Source: Cladosporium sp. IMV 00045 (Eukaryota; Ascomycota; Dothideomycetes; Cladosporiales; Cladosporiaceae). Taken from it: a stretch of 64,000 bases of DNA. The notes under the pieces were generated by a model, which worked only from the letters and a program-made list of their open reading frames with translations, had not been told where the DNA came from and did not search any database. The translations under genes and the position numbers were made by a program. The stretch lies in contig MSJI02000750.1 in NCBI GenBank assembly GCA_001931905.2, positions 62,001 to 126,000 of the forward strand. Reading direction: 5' to 3'. Positions 55,829-63,241 of the stretch are shown piece after piece; position 1 is the stretch's first letter, and every line of letters begins with the position of its first letter.

Positions 55829-57502
55829 TCAGCCCTTGAGCAACTTGACGCTAGCACCAAGCTTAGCCTGGATCTGCTTCTCGAAAACCCCAATGATGAA
55901 CTGCAAAGCCTCATTACCTCCCTTGCACGACCCAGCCTCGACGTGCTGGGCCAGACCGCTCAGAGTCTTGAAACAAAGAGTCGGCTTGCGAGAACCAGAA
56001 AGACCCGGCAAGTCGGTTGGGCAGCGGAAGATCTTGGGCGAGTGAACGATCGAATTGATGTGCTGGACGAGGTCGTGTTTCTTGCGGAAGGTCTCCGAGC
56101 AGGTGGGGCAGGGCCAGCTCTGAGAGTCTTCGTCGTAGCAGATGGTGTCGGTGGAGGAACCGTCGAGGGATGACGGGGCGGGCGTGAGCTTGCGAGAGGA
56201 GTTGAGGAATGACCAGCCGCTTAGAGCTGAACTGTCCTCGGAGGCAGACGGGCTGAGGATGATGCCGCCGTCGCTTATGGTGGTAGAAGTCGGGATCAGG
56301 AGGCTTTCGGTGGTGGAAGAATCGTCTGAGTCAAGGGACAGACCGCCAATGTCAAGAGCGCTGGAGACGTCGTCATCTGCGGAGGTGATGATGACAGTGC
56401 TGGTCGAGGACTCGGTATCCGAGTCGTGCATGGTGGACGTATTACTGTCTTCGGGAGTCAGGATGACCCCAGACTCGACACCGAGGGTGCTCGTTGCATC
56501 CGTAGCTTTGGCGGCGGAAGCTGACGGGGTGCCTCCAGTGTGGCTGGTGGTGCCGAAGTCCACTGGCATGGAGGGATCATAGTTCGAAGCCGAGTCATTC
56601 GGAACGATAGATGGACAAGACTTGTCAGGCATGGCGGCATCTAGAACACGCTGCGAGTGCTCAGACATGGTGATGTGGCGGGCAGTGTCGTGCTGATAGA
56701 CAACGGCATTCAAATTGTTGCGCGTCATTCCGCCTTTGCATTTACCACTCTCGAGGTGGAAGAGAAGGGCAGAGGGAGAAGAGAAGGTGCCATTGCACTC
56801 CTTGGACAGAGGACACTTCAACTCGCTCAAGGGGTTGTGCTTGGGAGAGCTCTTGTGTTGACTGAACGCTTTCAGAGTATTGAACTTCTGGTTGCAGGCA
56901 TTGCAGTAGAGATTGGTCTCTTCAAGCTCTTCAAGCTTCTTAGCTGCCATATCGCCGAAGAATTTCTTGTCCGCTGCTGCAGCGGCTACGTGGCCGTGGC
57001 CTCTGCTGTTCAAGTGGTCTTTGAGGGCTTGATCGGTACGGAAGCTTCGCTGACAATCTGTGCATTCAAATGTGCCGATGTGGGCGATCGTGCGTCTGTG
57101 GACTCTGACATCGTCCTTAGACACGAAAAACTCGTCGTGCTGGGCACAGTAGTAGTGTTCGGTGGACTTCCGATGAGCAACGCAGTGCTCTTTAACGTTG
57201 AAAACTTGGTTGCAAGCTGGACAGGAATAATGCTTCTTAGAGACGTGCTGCTGAAGCGAGCGAAGATCATCGAACTCCCTGTCGCAGAAGACGCACTCGA
57301 CTGGTCCATCTTCATGGACCAAGTCCTGCTCCTCATGCTCGAGCTTGACGTGATCTGAGTCACGCCAATGGTTGTAGAGGTCCTGGGGGTGACCGAATAG
57401 CGAGCCACAAGAACACTGGATCGAGTGACCTTGCGAGAGGACGTGCTTGTCGAAGGCATACGGCGTGCCAAAGACCACACCGCAGAAACAACGTGAAGAC
57501 AT
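55829..57502 (-). CDS. multi-C2H2 zinc-finger protein
   Basis: A 557-residue single-exon protein. At least seven C2H2-type fingers run through the first ~260 residues, such as CVFCDREFDDLRSLQQHVSK, CPACNQVFNVKEHCVAHRKS and CTDCQRSFRTDQALKDHLNS. A Ser/Thr/Asp-rich spacer follows, then two fingers near the C-terminus (CPTCSETFRKKHDLVQHINS and a variant ending LSGLAQHVEAGSC). The multi-finger array recalls unnamed fungal C2H2 proteins with C-x2-C fingers and long His spacing that may bind RNA or DNA. I chose the ATG at 57502 (MSSRCFCG); the open frame upstream of it starts only with TTG. Confidence 0.85.
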   Translation of the reverse strand: MSSRCFCGVVFGTPYAFDKHVLSQGHSIQCSCGSLFGHPQDLYNHWRDSDHVKLEHEEQDLVHEDGPVECVFCDREFDDLRSLQQHVSKKHYSCPACNQVFNVKEHCVAHRKSTEHYYCAQHDEFFVSKDDVRVHRRTIAHIGTFECTDCQRSFRTDQALKDHLNSRGHGHVAAAAADKKFFGDMAAKKLEELEETNLYCNACNQKFNTLKAFSQHKSSPKHNPLSELKCPLSKECNGTFSSPSALLFHLESGKCKGGMTRNNLNAVVYQHDTARHITMSEHSQRVLDAAMPDKSCPSIVPNDSASNYDPSMPVDFGTTSHTGGTPSASAAKATDATSTLGVESGVILTPEDSNTSTMHDSDTESSTSTVIITSADDDVSSALDIGGLSLDSDDSSTTESLLIPTSTTISDGGIILSPSASEDSSALSGWSFLNSSRKLTPAPSSLDGSSTDTICYDEDSQSWPCPTCSETFRKKHDLVQHINSIVHSPKIFRCPTDLPGLSGSRKPTLCFKTLSGLAQHVEAGSCKGGNEALQFIIGVFEKQIQAKLGASVKLLKG

Positions 57503-57973
57503 GGTGGACACGCTGCGCTGAAGAGGATCAAGTGTGAGCGAATGTGGAGATGGCGGTTTGTAAGGGTGGAGGTGTCGAAGAAGATCTTGTGTTGTTGCTA
57601 GATCTCGTAGAAGAAAAGGCAAGCCGTGGAAGGCAGCTTTGCAAATAAGCTAGTGGGTTGCTTAGCCGACCGTGCGCTGGAAGTGAAGTGAATGCGAGTG
57701 CCAGCTGCGAGCTACTCTGCGATGCGTCAATCAACGAGCGGACATCTTCGATTTCCATTGGCTGGTACCGACATTCTCTGACCGCATCGTCTACAACTCA
57801 GTCACTGCATCCTCATAGTTGTAGAATGTAAAAAGTCGTCTTGCCCCGCCTGACGCAATTGTTCCTGAGAAGACTCGAGAAGTGAACATGAGGGTAATGG
57901 CCCTTCAATTCCGTCCCATCGTCCAACAGTCATCCTGAAATTCAATGATCCACGCCATCGAACTTGACATCCC
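57503..57973. other. intergenic
   Basis: This holds the promoter of the zinc-finger gene (right-hand neighbour on the minus strand ends at 57974). Nothing else was recognised. Confidence 0.5.
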
Positions 57974-59821
57974 TCAATCACTAAGCAGATTCGCCTTCAC
58001 AGCCACAATGACCTCCTCGCTCAGCTCCAAGTGATCCCTCAAGTACGCAAATACGCCTCCAAACTCCCTCTCCACCATCTCCAAAGTGGCAAGCATATAC
58101 TCGCCTCGAGCGCGCACGACATTCGTAACCGATTGCACGTTTCCATTCAGACCAGGTTGGGCCAGCAGACGCTGGACGGCACCAGCACGCCAGTCGGCGT
58201 CAAGATCGTTGAGCGCGTATTCGTAGGCGATTGTGGCTGCGTTGCAGCCGGCGAGCGCGAGGAGAAGCATGCTGATGACGCCGGTTCGATCTTTACCCGC
58301 GGAACAGTGGACGAGTATGGGTCCTGGTTTGGGTTGAGCGAGGTGTTGGAAGATCAACCGGTATGCGCACGCTCCTTGGATGAGGGTCTTTTTGTATGCT
58401 TCAGCGTAGCCCTGTATAGAATGTTAGATATCTTGATCAACATGAACAGAGCATGGTAACCTTACCTCAGCGGCGCTTGCATATTTTTTCAACCGATCGT
58501 CTCGCTGTTGAGGCAGCCACTCGCTCTCCTCGAAGACAGGACACAGGATCTTCTCGATTCCCGAGGTCTTGAACATACCGTCGACCTCATCGAGTCGCTT
58601 TGGTGTCGCCACGCCACTGTCAACATCCTTGCCGTGAAAGCCTCCATTGATCTCAATGTGGCTGCGCAAGTCGAAAACCTTCTTCACACCAAGGTGCAGG
58701 AACTTTTGCTGTCCAGCGCCCGTCATCTGGGAAGGCTCTCCGCTGCGGAAAACAAGGCCGCAGCGCACCGAACGGCCATCCTCGGCCTGGTAGCCACCAA
58801 TGTCGCGGAACATGCGTACACCTTCGATGTTGACAAATGGCGCGCCGGGATTGGGTCCGATCTCGGGGCTCTTGGTGTTGGCGATTCGTCCGTTCTTCCA
58901 CTCGCGGACTGGAGGTCTCTCAGTGCACGCAATGTCATGGTAGCCCTCGGTCCAGGGCAAGAATATGCGCATCATGCTCAGCGTAGCTTTCCCTGAACGG
59001 CGCATCGCCGTACACATGATCTCTTGCGCCATGACTGTCAGCTTCCTCAGCTCCTGGTGATTATTTTGTCGTGAGCCCACATCAACTTGGGCGATGCCGC
59101 CGAGTCCGATCAGGTTGTATGTATCGACAAGAGTGCCAATATCAATACCGTAGCTCACCGGAAAGGAAAGCTGCTCGAGAAGTCCGCGGCGAGCAGCGAA
59201 CTCGCCTGCAAGAGGCTGACTGAAGCCAGCAAGGTCAGGCCAGAAACTGTTGAGGAGTGGCCGTGCCAGGATTTCGGTGACTCGGCCTCCATTGTGGCAA
59301 ATCATCTCTCCGTTGGCAGTTTTGAAAGGACGATCGAAGCACGCGCGAACCATTTGGATCTCTTCGTTGAGAAGTAGCGGTCCAAGGATGCCGATGAGAT
59401 GTGCCGGGGATGGATCCTCCGTATCGCCGTCCAAGAAAGCGACGATATCGCCGTCAGTGACAAGGAGAGCACGCCACAAGGCATCTCCTTTACCGCAACT
59501 CGGACCCAATTCTGCGGCTATGGTCTTGCGTTGGATCACCTCTGCGCCATGTTCGGCGGCAATCCTGCCTGTGCCATCTTCTGATGCTGCATCGATGACG
59601 ATCAGTCGAGAAACAATTCCAGCGTCGATGAGCGGTTGGACGGTATTGGCAATTACGCCAGCGATCGAAGATGCGACCTCTCTGCCTGGGATGATGACTG
59701 TGACTTTTGTTCCACTGCGATCGACGGCATCGCGAAGGTGCTGAATGGGGAACTGGTGATGTGAGAAGCGACGGTGTTCGAGCCAAGTAGGTAATGCATA
59801 AGGCGCCTTGGACGAGGCCAT
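57974..59821 (-). CDS. glucosyl-3-phosphoglycerate synthase-like glycosyltransferase fused to a tyrosine-phosphatase-like domain
   Basis: A 597-residue protein in two exons (58466-59821 and 57974-58411; intron 58412-58465). Residues ~35-300 match GpgS (GT81): TKVTVIIPGRE, LIVIDAASEDGT, GKGDALWRALLVTDGDIVAF, the metal-binding D-x-D (DGD, 131-133), NGGRVTEILARPLL (178 on) and SYGIDIGTLVDTY. In bacteria GpgS joins UDP- or NDP-glucose to 3-phosphoglycerate. Residues ~328-590 are a Y_phosphatase3-type fold. They open with VNIEGVRMFRDIGGY and carry the full P-loop HCSAGKDRTG (nucleophile Cys488, Arg494). No stop or frame break separates the two domains, and the splice falls inside the phosphatase part. 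Inference: one protein makes glucosyl-3-phosphoglycerate and removes its phosphate, giving glucosylglycerate. Whether the phosphatase acts on that product is untested by sequence alone. Confidence 0.88.
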
Positions 59822-60387: not shown

Positions 60388-62904
60388 TCATACCTCGATA
60401 GCATCTTCCGCCGAATTAACCCTTCTTGGCCCTACCCACCGTGGGATCCTCTCGAGCCATAGCTCAATATCCTCATCTCTCTCTAGGCGCATGCTTATGA
60501 AATTATCCTTCATCTCGTTGGCAGTGATCACAATCTCCAGCACATTTCTGTCTGCCAGTGCCCCACCAGGCCGACATGCTTTGTCAATGATCGTTTCGAA
60601 GACCTTGCTTTGACATGGCGGCACGCTGTCACTGTCCGGGAAATTCTTCAGGCAGTTTTGAAGCGCCGCCAGTTCGGGCATAGTCCATTGAGCTTGTTGA
60701 ACATGCGCTTCGTCTCGCAGGTATGGCATGCCATCTTCCATAGTTTCGACAAGGCTCGCAGGGCAAGATCTCAGATGCAGCAACTTTTGTCGGTTGAAGG
60801 TATTCGCGACGCGGACGCGCATAAGGTTGAGATGGTTCCAGTGGCTGTGATTGGCATCGGAGAGCTTTCTGTGACGCGCACGACGTTCCATCTCCCGGGT
60901 TTGTGCTTCCATGTCACGAACAGCCTCCTCCCTGGCGGCTCGCGCTTGTCGTTCCGCGATTTCTGTCCTGTGAACTCTTCTAAGGGAGTCCAGAATTGCG
61001 CGTACTGGAATCGCGATTCCTTCATGGATTTTTCGTTTGTTGGCCCTCTCACTCAACTTCAGGAATCCGTCATGCGCAGATTTTTCGCTGTCTCCGATGG
61101 CAACCATGATGTCGAGGACCGTGCGAAGATGCTCCGGAGAAATTTGTTGGTTGTCTGTAGTTCCAACGTCCAAAACCTCAAAGCCTCTTACGATCGCATA
61201 CAGAAGCAATGCGAGCGCCGGGATCAAGTGTTTGAAGATATGAAAACCAAGCTTCTTGTCTGAGAAGTCAACTTGAGAGTCGCCGTGACCACAGATCTTT
61301 CGGGACCGCTTGAGAATTGATGTGCATCTGCTGACAAACTGGTTGAGTTCCTCTGCGCCGACGACCGAGGCAGTAGCGCGGATTGAGCTGGTCAACATCT
61401 CACAATCCTCCAACAGCTTCTTGAATCCTGGGTTCTTGGTGCGCACCTTTGCACCGTTATATTTTTTGGCGACAGTAAAAATTTTGCGGAATCTGGCCCA
61501 GTGGCCGTATAACCGATGTTGATCAGTTTCGTCGGATAGTGCTTCGGCATCGTCTTCGTCGCTCTCGGGCATTTCTCCATGCACTGTGACTATCTCTTCC
61601 TCACCATCATCGCCATCCTCATCAGCCTCTTCCTCCTCCACATTTTCCTCATCCTCGTTGTGTTGCGACGAAATGTTCGCGGGTTGAGGATCATCATCCA
61701 TCAGTTCGGTGGCATGAATCTCCTGCTGAGAGCCAGCAACAGCCTGCCCCTCCGCGGTCCTATCAGGGGACTTCAGAGCTGCTTGTGAGCGCACAGAAGA
61801 TTGTTTTTGTCGCTTCGAGGGTGGTGGAGCTTCTTCACGATCGCCATTGCCACCTCTGGATTCCGCAGAAGATTTTGGCGCGTGTCGTGTACTCCTACGA
61901 CGAAGCTCACCTTCCTCATTTGCATTGAGAGCAGTAGAACCACTCTCCGTCGCTCGAGCATTTTCCGCTTGCTTGACGGCGTTCTTTGACGGACGTCCAC
62001 GCTTCCTCTTCTCACCTGTAGGTGGCCTCTTCTCATCTCCGGTAGCAGCTTTGGATGGTCTGCCTCGCTTCCTCTTGACCACAAGTTGGGGTTCGTCTTT
62101 GGACCGATCCTGATGTACATTTGCGTCCTGTCCCTCAGCATTGGCGGAATGATCCAGTGTGACATCGTTGTCGGTGATTTGGTCTGGTGGTTGGGCGCTG
62201 GATCCACGGACCTCAATTGTGTCGTCTTGATCAGCCTCGGCCTGGTCATCCTGTGCCGTTTCTATTCTTTCCGCACTCATACGCATTCTACGCGACTCCT
62301 TTCGCGCGCGAATCTTTGCTCCGGCAGAACAATTATCTTCGGCAATGTCCTCCACCTGCTGCATAAACTGTTGATACTGACCCAGCTGCGCATCCGCCAG
62401 CCGCTGATCTTCTCTGGCTGCTTCTTCAAGGGTTCGAGACGTCTGCCTGGCATGTCTCTTTAGCGGAGAGAATGGTCGGGCACTCGAAGTATGTCTCCTT
62501 CTCCGTGGTAGTTCGTCGTCAGAAGGAACATCGTAGACATTGGGCCTAGATAAGGGATTCGGTGCCAGTCTCCGCTGTCCAGAACTGGTCTGCGGTTTGC
62601 GGGCGGAATAGCTTGGAAGGGTGCCTCGCTTTTTGCTATTCGATTGCGTGGCCATTTGTGAGGCGGCGCGGATTGTGGCACTGCGCTCTTGACGTGATTC
62701 TATCGATTCGCCTTGGCCCATTGCGTTGTTGGGGTTGTCGCCCGTCGCGTCATTTGAGTGTTGTGTGGTCTGTCGGTGCTTGTCGGTGCTCTTGCGCCCA
62801 GAGTCGATAAACGAGCCTTCCTCGTTCGTGACTGCTTCGCTCTCAGCTCCCTCCGGCGTGCGCTCTGGAGTCACCGGCGCTCCCATGCCAGAGAGGCGCG
62901 CCAT
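60388..62904 (-). CDS. AT-hook nuclear protein of unknown function
   Basis: An 838-residue single-exon protein. Two AT-hook motifs (KRKRGRPSK, twice, about 20 residues apart, near residues 280-310) suggest binding to the minor groove of AT-rich DNA. Disordered, highly charged sequence surrounds them, with an acidic block (EENVEEEEADEDGDDGEEE). The C-terminal ~400 residues look helical and folded: HWARFRKIFTVAKKYNGAKV, GFHIFKHLIPALALLLYAIV, RAILDSLRRVHRTEIAERQA and QWTMPELAALQNCLKNFPDS. The last of these resembles a Myb/SANT-like helix start. I do not recognise the family. The ATG at 62904 (in the context GCCATGG) is preferred over 63075, because the extra N-terminus reads like leader sequence. 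Confidence 0.75.
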   Translation of the reverse strand: MARLSGMGAPVTPERTPEGAESEAVTNEEGSFIDSGRKSTDKHRQTTQHSNDATGDNPNNAMGQGESIESRQERSATIRAASQMATQSNSKKRGTLPSYSARKPQTSSGQRRLAPNPLSRPNVYDVPSDDELPRRRRHTSSARPFSPLKRHARQTSRTLEEAAREDQRLADAQLGQYQQFMQQVEDIAEDNCSAGAKIRARKESRRMRMSAERIETAQDDQAEADQDDTIEVRGSSAQPPDQITDNDVTLDHSANAEGQDANVHQDRSKDEPQLVVKRKRGRPSKAATGDEKRPPTGEKRKRGRPSKNAVKQAENARATESGSTALNANEEGELRRRSTRHAPKSSAESRGGNGDREEAPPPSKRQKQSSVRSQAALKSPDRTAEGQAVAGSQQEIHATELMDDDPQPANISSQHNEDEENVEEEEADEDGDDGEEEIVTVHGEMPESDEDDAEALSDETDQHRLYGHWARFRKIFTVAKKYNGAKVRTKNPGFKKLLEDCEMLTSSIRATASVVGAEELNQFVSRCTSILKRSRKICGHGDSQVDFSDKKLGFHIFKHLIPALALLLYAIVRGFEVLDVGTTDNQQISPEHLRTVLDIMVAIGDSEKSAHDGFLKLSERANKRKIHEGIAIPVRAILDSLRRVHRTEIAERQARAAREEAVRDMEAQTREMERRARHRKLSDANHSHWNHLNLMRVRVANTFNRQKLLHLRSCPASLVETMEDGMPYLRDEAHVQQAQWTMPELAALQNCLKNFPDSDSVPPCQSKVFETIIDKACRPGGALADRNVLEIVITANEMKDNFISMRLERDEDIELWLERIPRWVGPRRVNSAEDAIEV

Positions 62905-63241
62905 GGCCGCTGGGATCGCACAATCGTCGTGTATCAAACTGTATTGAGCAGTCGAGGCAGGCGCGTCATAACAAATCGCATCTCGTCGGCGCAGGGCGAA
63001 GTGTGGGGAAGTCAAACGGTGGAAGCCAAAATCTCTTGAACGTTGCACAACACGATACAATGCAGCGCGTGACATAGAAAATAGAGAAACAGCCACTTCT
63101 CAAAGAAAATCGAGAAAACAAGAGCGTCAACAATAAGGACGTTCGTGGAAAGCATATCGACATCAGACACCGCCGGCAGCTGACCTGATCGACCACCTCC
63201 CGAGGAGCACATCTCAACAAGATCAGTATAGCTCGTTTGCT
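62905..63241. other. divergent promoter region
   Basis: 337 bp between the AT-hook gene and the PTPA gene. Nothing was recognised apart from the frame extension discussed for the AT-hook gene. Confidence 0.5.

Follow-up and report, generated by a model that had tools for sequence, protein, structure and literature searches.

A fungal fusion of a GT81 glycosyltransferase with a tyrosine-phosphatase-fold domain as a candidate one-protein route to glucosyl- or mannosylglycerate

Can a single fungal protein both form a hexosyl-3-phosphoglycerate and remove its phosphate? The question is raised by a gene in a 64,000-nucleotide stretch of Cladosporium sp. IMV 00045 DNA (contig MSJI02000750.1, positions 62,001 to 126,000; hereafter the window), which lies in contig C747 of a 49.9-Mb genome of 954 contigs. 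The gene joins a family GT81 glycosyltransferase (GT) to a Y_phosphatase3 domain. The fusion is conserved among fungi and of mixed ancestry, and its catalytic and acceptor motifs are intact. Judging from sequence comparison, the product is, on balance, somewhat more probably than otherwise a bifunctional enzyme that would make hexosyl-3-phosphoglycerate and then dephosphorylate it, a chimera of an actinobacterial GT81 and a fungal phosphatase.

Checked against the sequence, the original prediction is right about its coordinates (57974-59821), both domains, the HCxxGxxR loop with Cys488, and the motifs DGD, GGRVTEILARPLL and YGIDIGTLVDTY. It gave no strand; the gene lies on the minus strand, so the span reads 59821..57974. 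The protein had also been described as uninterrupted, which does not hold: the open frame runs to a stop within a 54-nt intron (58465..58412), and splicing yields 597 amino acids (aa). This intron is called from the sequence alone, not from RNA. A second genomic copy has an intron at the same site, also of 54 nt and diverged in sequence, and several unspliced metagenomic relatives depart from the coding sequence there. The features are as follows.

57974..59821, minus strand: whole gene; ATG at 59821, stop at 57976-57974; 597 aa after splicing; aligned with 11 other fungal records
58466..59821, minus strand: exon 1, aa 1-452, with the entire GT81 domain, the linker and the first half of the phosphatase domain
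58412..58465, minus strand: intron of 54 nt, GTAAGG...TACAG, containing an in-frame stop
57974..58411, minus strand: exon 2, aa 453-597 and the stop, with the catalytic half of the phosphatase domain
58898..59788, minus strand: GT81 glycosyltransferase domain, aa 12-308
59423..59431, minus strand: DxD metal/donor motif DGD, aa 131-133, invariant in 12 of 12 rows; equivalent to Asp134/Asp136 of M. tuberculosis GpgS
59273..59290, minus strand: acceptor loop GGRVTE, aa 178-183; equivalent to the Gly184-Arg185-Val186-Thr187 loop of M. tuberculosis GpgS, which contacts 3-phosphoglycerate
59141..59143, minus strand: Asp227, which is Glu in the second copy and in all other fungal-type records covering the position
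57983..58831, minus strand: Y_phosphatase3 (PF13350) domain, aa 331-595, split by the intron
58280..58309, minus strand: phosphatase P-loop HCSAGKDRTG, aa 487-496, with the nucleophile Cys488

According to the family profiles, aa 12-308 match NCBIfam NF010496 (glucosyl-3-phosphoglycerate synthase, GpgS) with 317 bits, above the cut-off of 262, and aa 331-595 match Pfam PF13350 (Y_phosphatase3) with 187.4 bits, above the gathering score of 22.2 and with an intact P-loop. The remaining Pfam matches of the protein include a weak one to PF00535 (aa 56-137), and none to an HAD domain or to a phosphoglycerate-mutase-like domain of the GpgP type, which we take to have a histidine-phosphatase fold. 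The bacterial GpgS pathway relies on a separate phosphatase of another fold. As originally proposed, sequence and comparison support a GT81 synthase fused to a phosphatase whose fold is unrelated to that of the bacterial partner, and the fusion is conserved across fungi. The second copy (homeolog), on contig C262, differs at 40 of 597 residues, with dN of 0.034 and dS of 0.405 (ratio about 0.08). Regarding the two parts, dN/dS is 0.027/0.494 for the GT and 0.040/0.349 for the phosphatase, values that suggest purifying selection on both halves. Profile scores, homologous fungal fusions and these homeolog values together establish that the fusion is not due to chance.

A survey for the same fusion, which the original prediction had suggested, found it in 11 named fungi. 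Among the best 120 of 730 matches in a protein search, PF13350 is present in 35 homologues, and the 11 named ones are all fungi: Cladosporium fusiforme (82% identity), Neodothiora populina, Aspergillus nanangensis, A. lucknowensis, A. heteromorphus, Penicillium sp. IBT 18751x, P. atrosanguineum, P. maclennaniae, Pseudevernia consocians, Lecanora helva, and Psora crenata. Two of the lichen fusion records are metagenome-assembled genomes (MAGs). The named fungi fall in the Dothideomycetes, Eurotiomycetes and Lecanoromycetes; the lineages of two were looked up, and the others we take to belong to these classes. Ten fusions used as a profile query brought no further PF13350 record to light among the best 120 of 427 rows, and no Sordariomycete name occurs among the best 120 of 730 relatives or among the profile-search matches listed. 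Several metagenomic records lack the P-loop because their sequence departs from coding at the intron site, while others end earlier and P0024 ends just past that site. In a pattern search, which selects for matches by its own design, the P-loop is seen in 14 of 49 fungal-type records, with the residue before Cys being Asn in three and Tyr in one.

As for the catalytic residues, Asp131, Asp133, Lys111 and the loop Cys488-x-Ala490-Gly-Lys-Asp-Arg-Thr-Gly496 are invariant in all 12 aligned fusions (the window and 11 others). D131, D133, K111, R180, V181 and T182 align with mycobacterial GpgS residues. The M. tuberculosis positions used here are those of PMC2581804, mapped through the M. hassiacum sequence. 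According to the accessible part of that paper, Thr187 and Val186 hold the acceptor carboxylate; their counterparts in the fusion are Thr182 and Val181. The 3-phosphoglycerate-binding residues, whose possible loss the original prediction had raised, are kept (R180, V181, T182); of 40 records that show a GRVxE pattern in the acceptor loop, 37 read GRVTE.

The two halves differ in origin: the GT groups with actinobacteria of the Patulibacter type, and the phosphatase with fungal ones. The GT tree comprises 80 domains, namely 27 proteins labelled fungal, 18 other proteins, the window, two solved enzymes, and 32 of 80 bacterial loci; the latter are the best 80 of 276 relatives from a bacterial and archaeal genome scan, all titled Actinomycetota or groups within it. 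In this tree the labels of unnamed records are mostly inferred, and its drawing is midpoint-rooted. Its fungal clade of 31 rows (100/99) consists of 28 labelled rows plus P0040, P0042, and P0043. PF13350 is not listed for six of the 31 (P0032, P0036, P0038, P0040, P0042, and P0043), some of which are visibly cut. This clade meets eight Patulibacter-type rows (own node 94/66) at a node of 100/99 inside Thermoleophilia, and Rubrobacter MpgS and M. hassiacum GpgS fall in other clades. In the phosphatase tree of 55 domains, the fusions and P0123 belong to a clade of 37 rows (100/99) in which every named row is a fungus and no named bacterium falls, and the phosphatase half of the fusions groups with fungal stand-alone phosphatases. 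The GT tree sets Lecanoromycete-type rows (99/95) apart from Dothideomycete/Eurotiomycete-type rows (99/91), leaving P0035 and P0042 unplaced, and the phosphatase tree likewise splits the Lecanoromycete type (99/91, with P0123) from the Dothideomycete/Eurotiomycete type (100/100). The simplest account would have the GT transferred once from an actinobacterium and joined once to a fungal phosphatase, with vertical descent and losses thereafter. The joining would have preceded the split of the Lecanoromycetes from the Dothideomycetes and Eurotiomycetes, and purifying selection would have kept the fusion.

In the proposed mechanism, a nucleotide sugar would supply a hexose, either glucose or mannose, which the N-terminal GT81 domain would attach to 3-phosphoglycerate to form hexosyl-3-phosphoglycerate. 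The Y_phosphatase3 domain at the C-terminus would then remove the phosphate through a Cys488 phosphoenzyme, releasing glucosylglycerate or mannosylglycerate, which would probably be an internal solute. The synthase step is proposed because of family membership and the conserved acceptor residues, and the phosphatase step because of the fusion, the pathway's need for a phosphatase, and a gene pair in Patulibacter. In Patulibacter minatonensis, the top of the 80 loci (55% identity), the start of an HAD gene overlaps the GT stop by four bases (ATGA); its protein is HAD-IIB-like, with sub-cut-off matches to phosphoglycolate and mannosyl-3-phosphoglycerate phosphatase models. These parts of the mechanism differ in strength: 3-phosphoglycerate is probably the acceptor, the phosphatase half acts, somewhat less probably, on the GT product, and for service as a solute the balance is even. 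Protection against osmotic or drying stress is suggested by analogy with bacteria only, and the originally proposed links to osmotic, desiccation or nitrogen stress are not established. Hence, of the original claim that one protein does both steps, a GT81 synthase fused to a phosphatase stands as the best reading, and action of that phosphatase on the product is not established.

Several observations weigh against a bifunctional enzyme of this kind. Solved relatives of the phosphatase half are labelled tyrosine phosphatases, and the predicted structure has a predicted template-modelling score (pTM) of 0.61, which makes the domain arrangement uncertain. The acceptor loop departs from GRVTE in 3 of the 40 patterned records (GRVNE) and in two further metagenomic records, P0013 (GRITE) and P0015 (GRVTK). 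P0123, without a GT half, groups with the Lecanoromycete fusions in the phosphatase tree, and P0042, a GT-only record, lies within the fungal GT clade; fission, an unfused stage, and cut gene models are all conceivable. Pairwise distances of the halves correlate (r of 0.72 over 11 rows, with 0 of 2000 permutations as high), which is as expected for any two vertically inherited genes and is silent on function. In bacteria, none of the 80 loci has a Y_phosphatase3 neighbour or fusion (8155 open reading frames, ORFs; E up to 10), and the same profile gave 237-259 bits for five positive-control proteins, one being among the profile's own sequences; such a bacterial arrangement, considered as the source of the fungal fusion, is ruled out for these loci. 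An HAD-family ORF is found near the GT in as few as 9 of the 80 (directly downstream in 8 and about 3 kb upstream in 1). In a Pfam scan of the GT-downstream ORFs of 59 loci, which were picked by length and are probably not all genes, HAD Hydrolase_3 is the commonest match, yet with 4 of 59. The HAD-GT association in bacteria is thus not general.

Residue 227 also counts against it. The window copy has Asp there, against Glu in the homeolog and in 46 of 46 further records that cover the site (45 found by pattern and P0012 by eye). The position corresponds, through the M. hassiacum sequence, to Glu232 of M. tuberculosis GpgS, a member of the donor network according to the accessible text of PMC2581804. 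The Asp may reflect strain variation or weakened activity. It is improbable, in view of the intact remainder of the window frame and the Asp that the same text gives at this position in the related enzyme MgS, that the window copy has lost some or all of its GT activity and leaves the work to the second copy. A changed acceptor, with a product other than glycosyl-phosphoglycerate, would account for the Asn that three records have at the Thr contacting 3-phosphoglycerate, and is the least probable of the alternatives: GRVTE prevails in the other records with the pattern, and a fused phosphatase suits a phosphorylated acceptor. The GT half might instead make the phosphorylated intermediate and be joined, for reasons of localisation or control, to a phosphatase that works in signalling or on phosphoinositides and regulates the enzyme or another target. 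Y_phosphatase3 domains do resemble M. tuberculosis PtpB and a C. difficile PTP, and the genome holds other Y_phosphatase3 loci besides the fusion. This alternative is nevertheless unlikely, given that 11 named fungi, from three classes, all join Y_phosphatase3 to the same GT, that a phosphatase is exactly the pathway's missing second step, and that the Patulibacter GT gene is overlapped by a phosphatase gene of another fold.

The identity of the sugar is a question within the bifunctional reading, since a mannosylglycerate-specific enzyme, a GT81 MpgS rather than a GpgS, would be a version of it and not exclusive of it. Such specificity is possible although doubtful. Both by sequence and by fold (among the fold matches listed), the best solved-structure match of the GT half is Rubrobacter xylanophilus MpgS, and three donor-site positions agree with that enzyme: Val49 for mycobacterial Glu54 (Cys in three Solirubrobacterales rows), Ala78 for Ser81 (Asn in P0016 and Val in P0042), and Asn253 for His258, within an RQNxH loop in place of RAHRNR. 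Ser81 is said, in the accessible text of PMC2581804, to block the guanine amino group, so the fungal donor site, whose rows lack this Ser, may admit GDP-sugars. In contrast, Arg98 (Arg101 in M. tuberculosis) is Arg in the fungal rows as in mycobacterial GpgS, Glu in Rubrobacter, and Gln in the bacterial Thermoleophilia rows tried. The fungal GT clade, moreover, lies outside the Rubrobacter clade, the GT half scores above the GpgS cut-off of NF010496, and the paper on the Rubrobacter enzyme announces, in its title, dual substrate specificity. With three positions and the closest structure pointing to MpgS and one position to GpgS, glucose as the sugar is not established. The original assignment as GpgS keeps its profile score (317 vs 262 bits) and acceptor residues.

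In comparison with known systems, the fusion shares with GpgS of M. tuberculosis and M. hassiacum the GT81 fold, the DxD motif, Lys111, Arg98, the GGRVTE loop, and the NF010496 score above cut-off, whereas those enzymes are bacterial, have no fused phosphatase, and carry other residues at Glu54, Ser81 and the His258/Asn260 loop. Rubrobacter xylanophilus MpgS, the closest solved structure, has Val, Ala and the RQNxH loop in common with the fusion, but its solved chain of 387 residues lacks a phosphatase domain. The closest sequences, with about 50-55% identity across the GT half and a neighbouring tree clade, are the GpgS-annotated GT81 proteins of Patulibacter and Solirubrobacterales; unlike the fusion, many have an N-terminal GT2-type domain, and their phosphatase, where seen, is a separate HAD-type gene. 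As for the phosphatase half, it resembles the Y_phosphatase3-type PtpB (1ywf/2oz5) and C. difficile PTP (8dhi/8dhj) in fold and in the AGKDRTG P-loop, whereas those proteins are stand-alone and described as tyrosine phosphatases.

Fusions of synthase and phosphatase have precedents. The bifunctional mannosylglycerate synthase/phosphatase, which we take to be MgsD, a GT55 and HAD protein, likewise has both activities in one chain, with both halves from other families than here. In the Cladosporium genome, PF09488 (GT55 synthase) has no match, with a positive Thermus control, and a GT55 synthase was accordingly dismissed. The accessible text of PMC6240254 reports that bifunctional enzyme, and that of PMC10873239 a fused glucosylglycerol-phosphate enzyme in Marinobacter. 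The accessible part of PMC6794485 mentions Sordaria macrospora SMAC_02065 as a 'mannosyl-3-phosphoglycerate synthase' and speculates on an origin in thermophilic Actinomycetales; it is fungal and of the same pathway type, a likeness by description only, its family not being stated in that part. By title or start of abstract, no paper on fungal GT81, fungal glucosylglycerate or the fusion was found among the papers listed, subscription papers being mostly outside the scope of the search.

Among other observations, a second Y_phosphatase3 gene of the genome (L014 1498-2609, reverse) has 63-66% identity to a Cladosporium protein and 46-48% to Salinomyces, which suggests a host closer to Cladosporium than to Hortaea. 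The genome also contains two copies of a PF22422 glycoside hydrolase (about 260 bits, one at L099 1471-3222). This protein was rejected as pathway support of the mannosylglycerate hydrolase type, the best solved relative of one copy being a beta-L-arabinobiosidase (4.4e-64), with a weak F5/8-type match. In 10 bacterial loci (L057, L061, L062, L070, L071, L085, L086, L087, L093, and L097; 8 titled Rubrobacter or Rubrobacteraceae), GT81 has, on the opposite strand and at most about 2 kb away, a SurE-like gene, so named from its sequence, that could be a phosphatase of the same pathway. Many Patulibacter and Solirubrobacterales proteins (e.g., L019 6161-7975) carry a second glycosyltransferase domain, of the GT2 type, N-terminal to GT81, which makes a fusion of another kind. 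A further GT81 locus, L074 5906-6673, comes from a MAG titled Bifidobacterium breve, probably in error. In the window, the flanking ORFs encode a multi-C2H2 zinc-finger protein (55829-57622) and an AT-hook protein (60388-63096), and these neighbours form no obvious metabolic cluster.

At its broadest, the bifunctional reading would be a eukaryotic one-protein route to glucosyl- or mannosylglycerate, in which an acquired actinobacterial GT81 was completed by a native tyrosine-phosphatase-fold domain recruited as a sugar-phosphate phosphatase in place of the bacterial HAD partner. It would amount to an overlooked compatible-solute pathway spread through lichen fungi, Aspergillus/Penicillium and dothideomycetes; for this full statement, the arguments on either side are about equal. 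If it is true, glucosyl- or mannosylglycerate, a type of solute best known from bacteria and archaea, joins the fungal solutes, with lichen fungi, Aspergillus, and Penicillium among the producers. The fungal GT81 clade alters the picture given in the accessible text of a 2020 survey of GT-A glycosyltransferases (PMC7185993), where GT81 is cited as an example of families confined to prokaryotes. A tyrosine-phosphatase fold has apparently been recruited for a step done by other folds elsewhere, and the gene would exemplify how a native domain can complete an enzyme acquired from bacteria.
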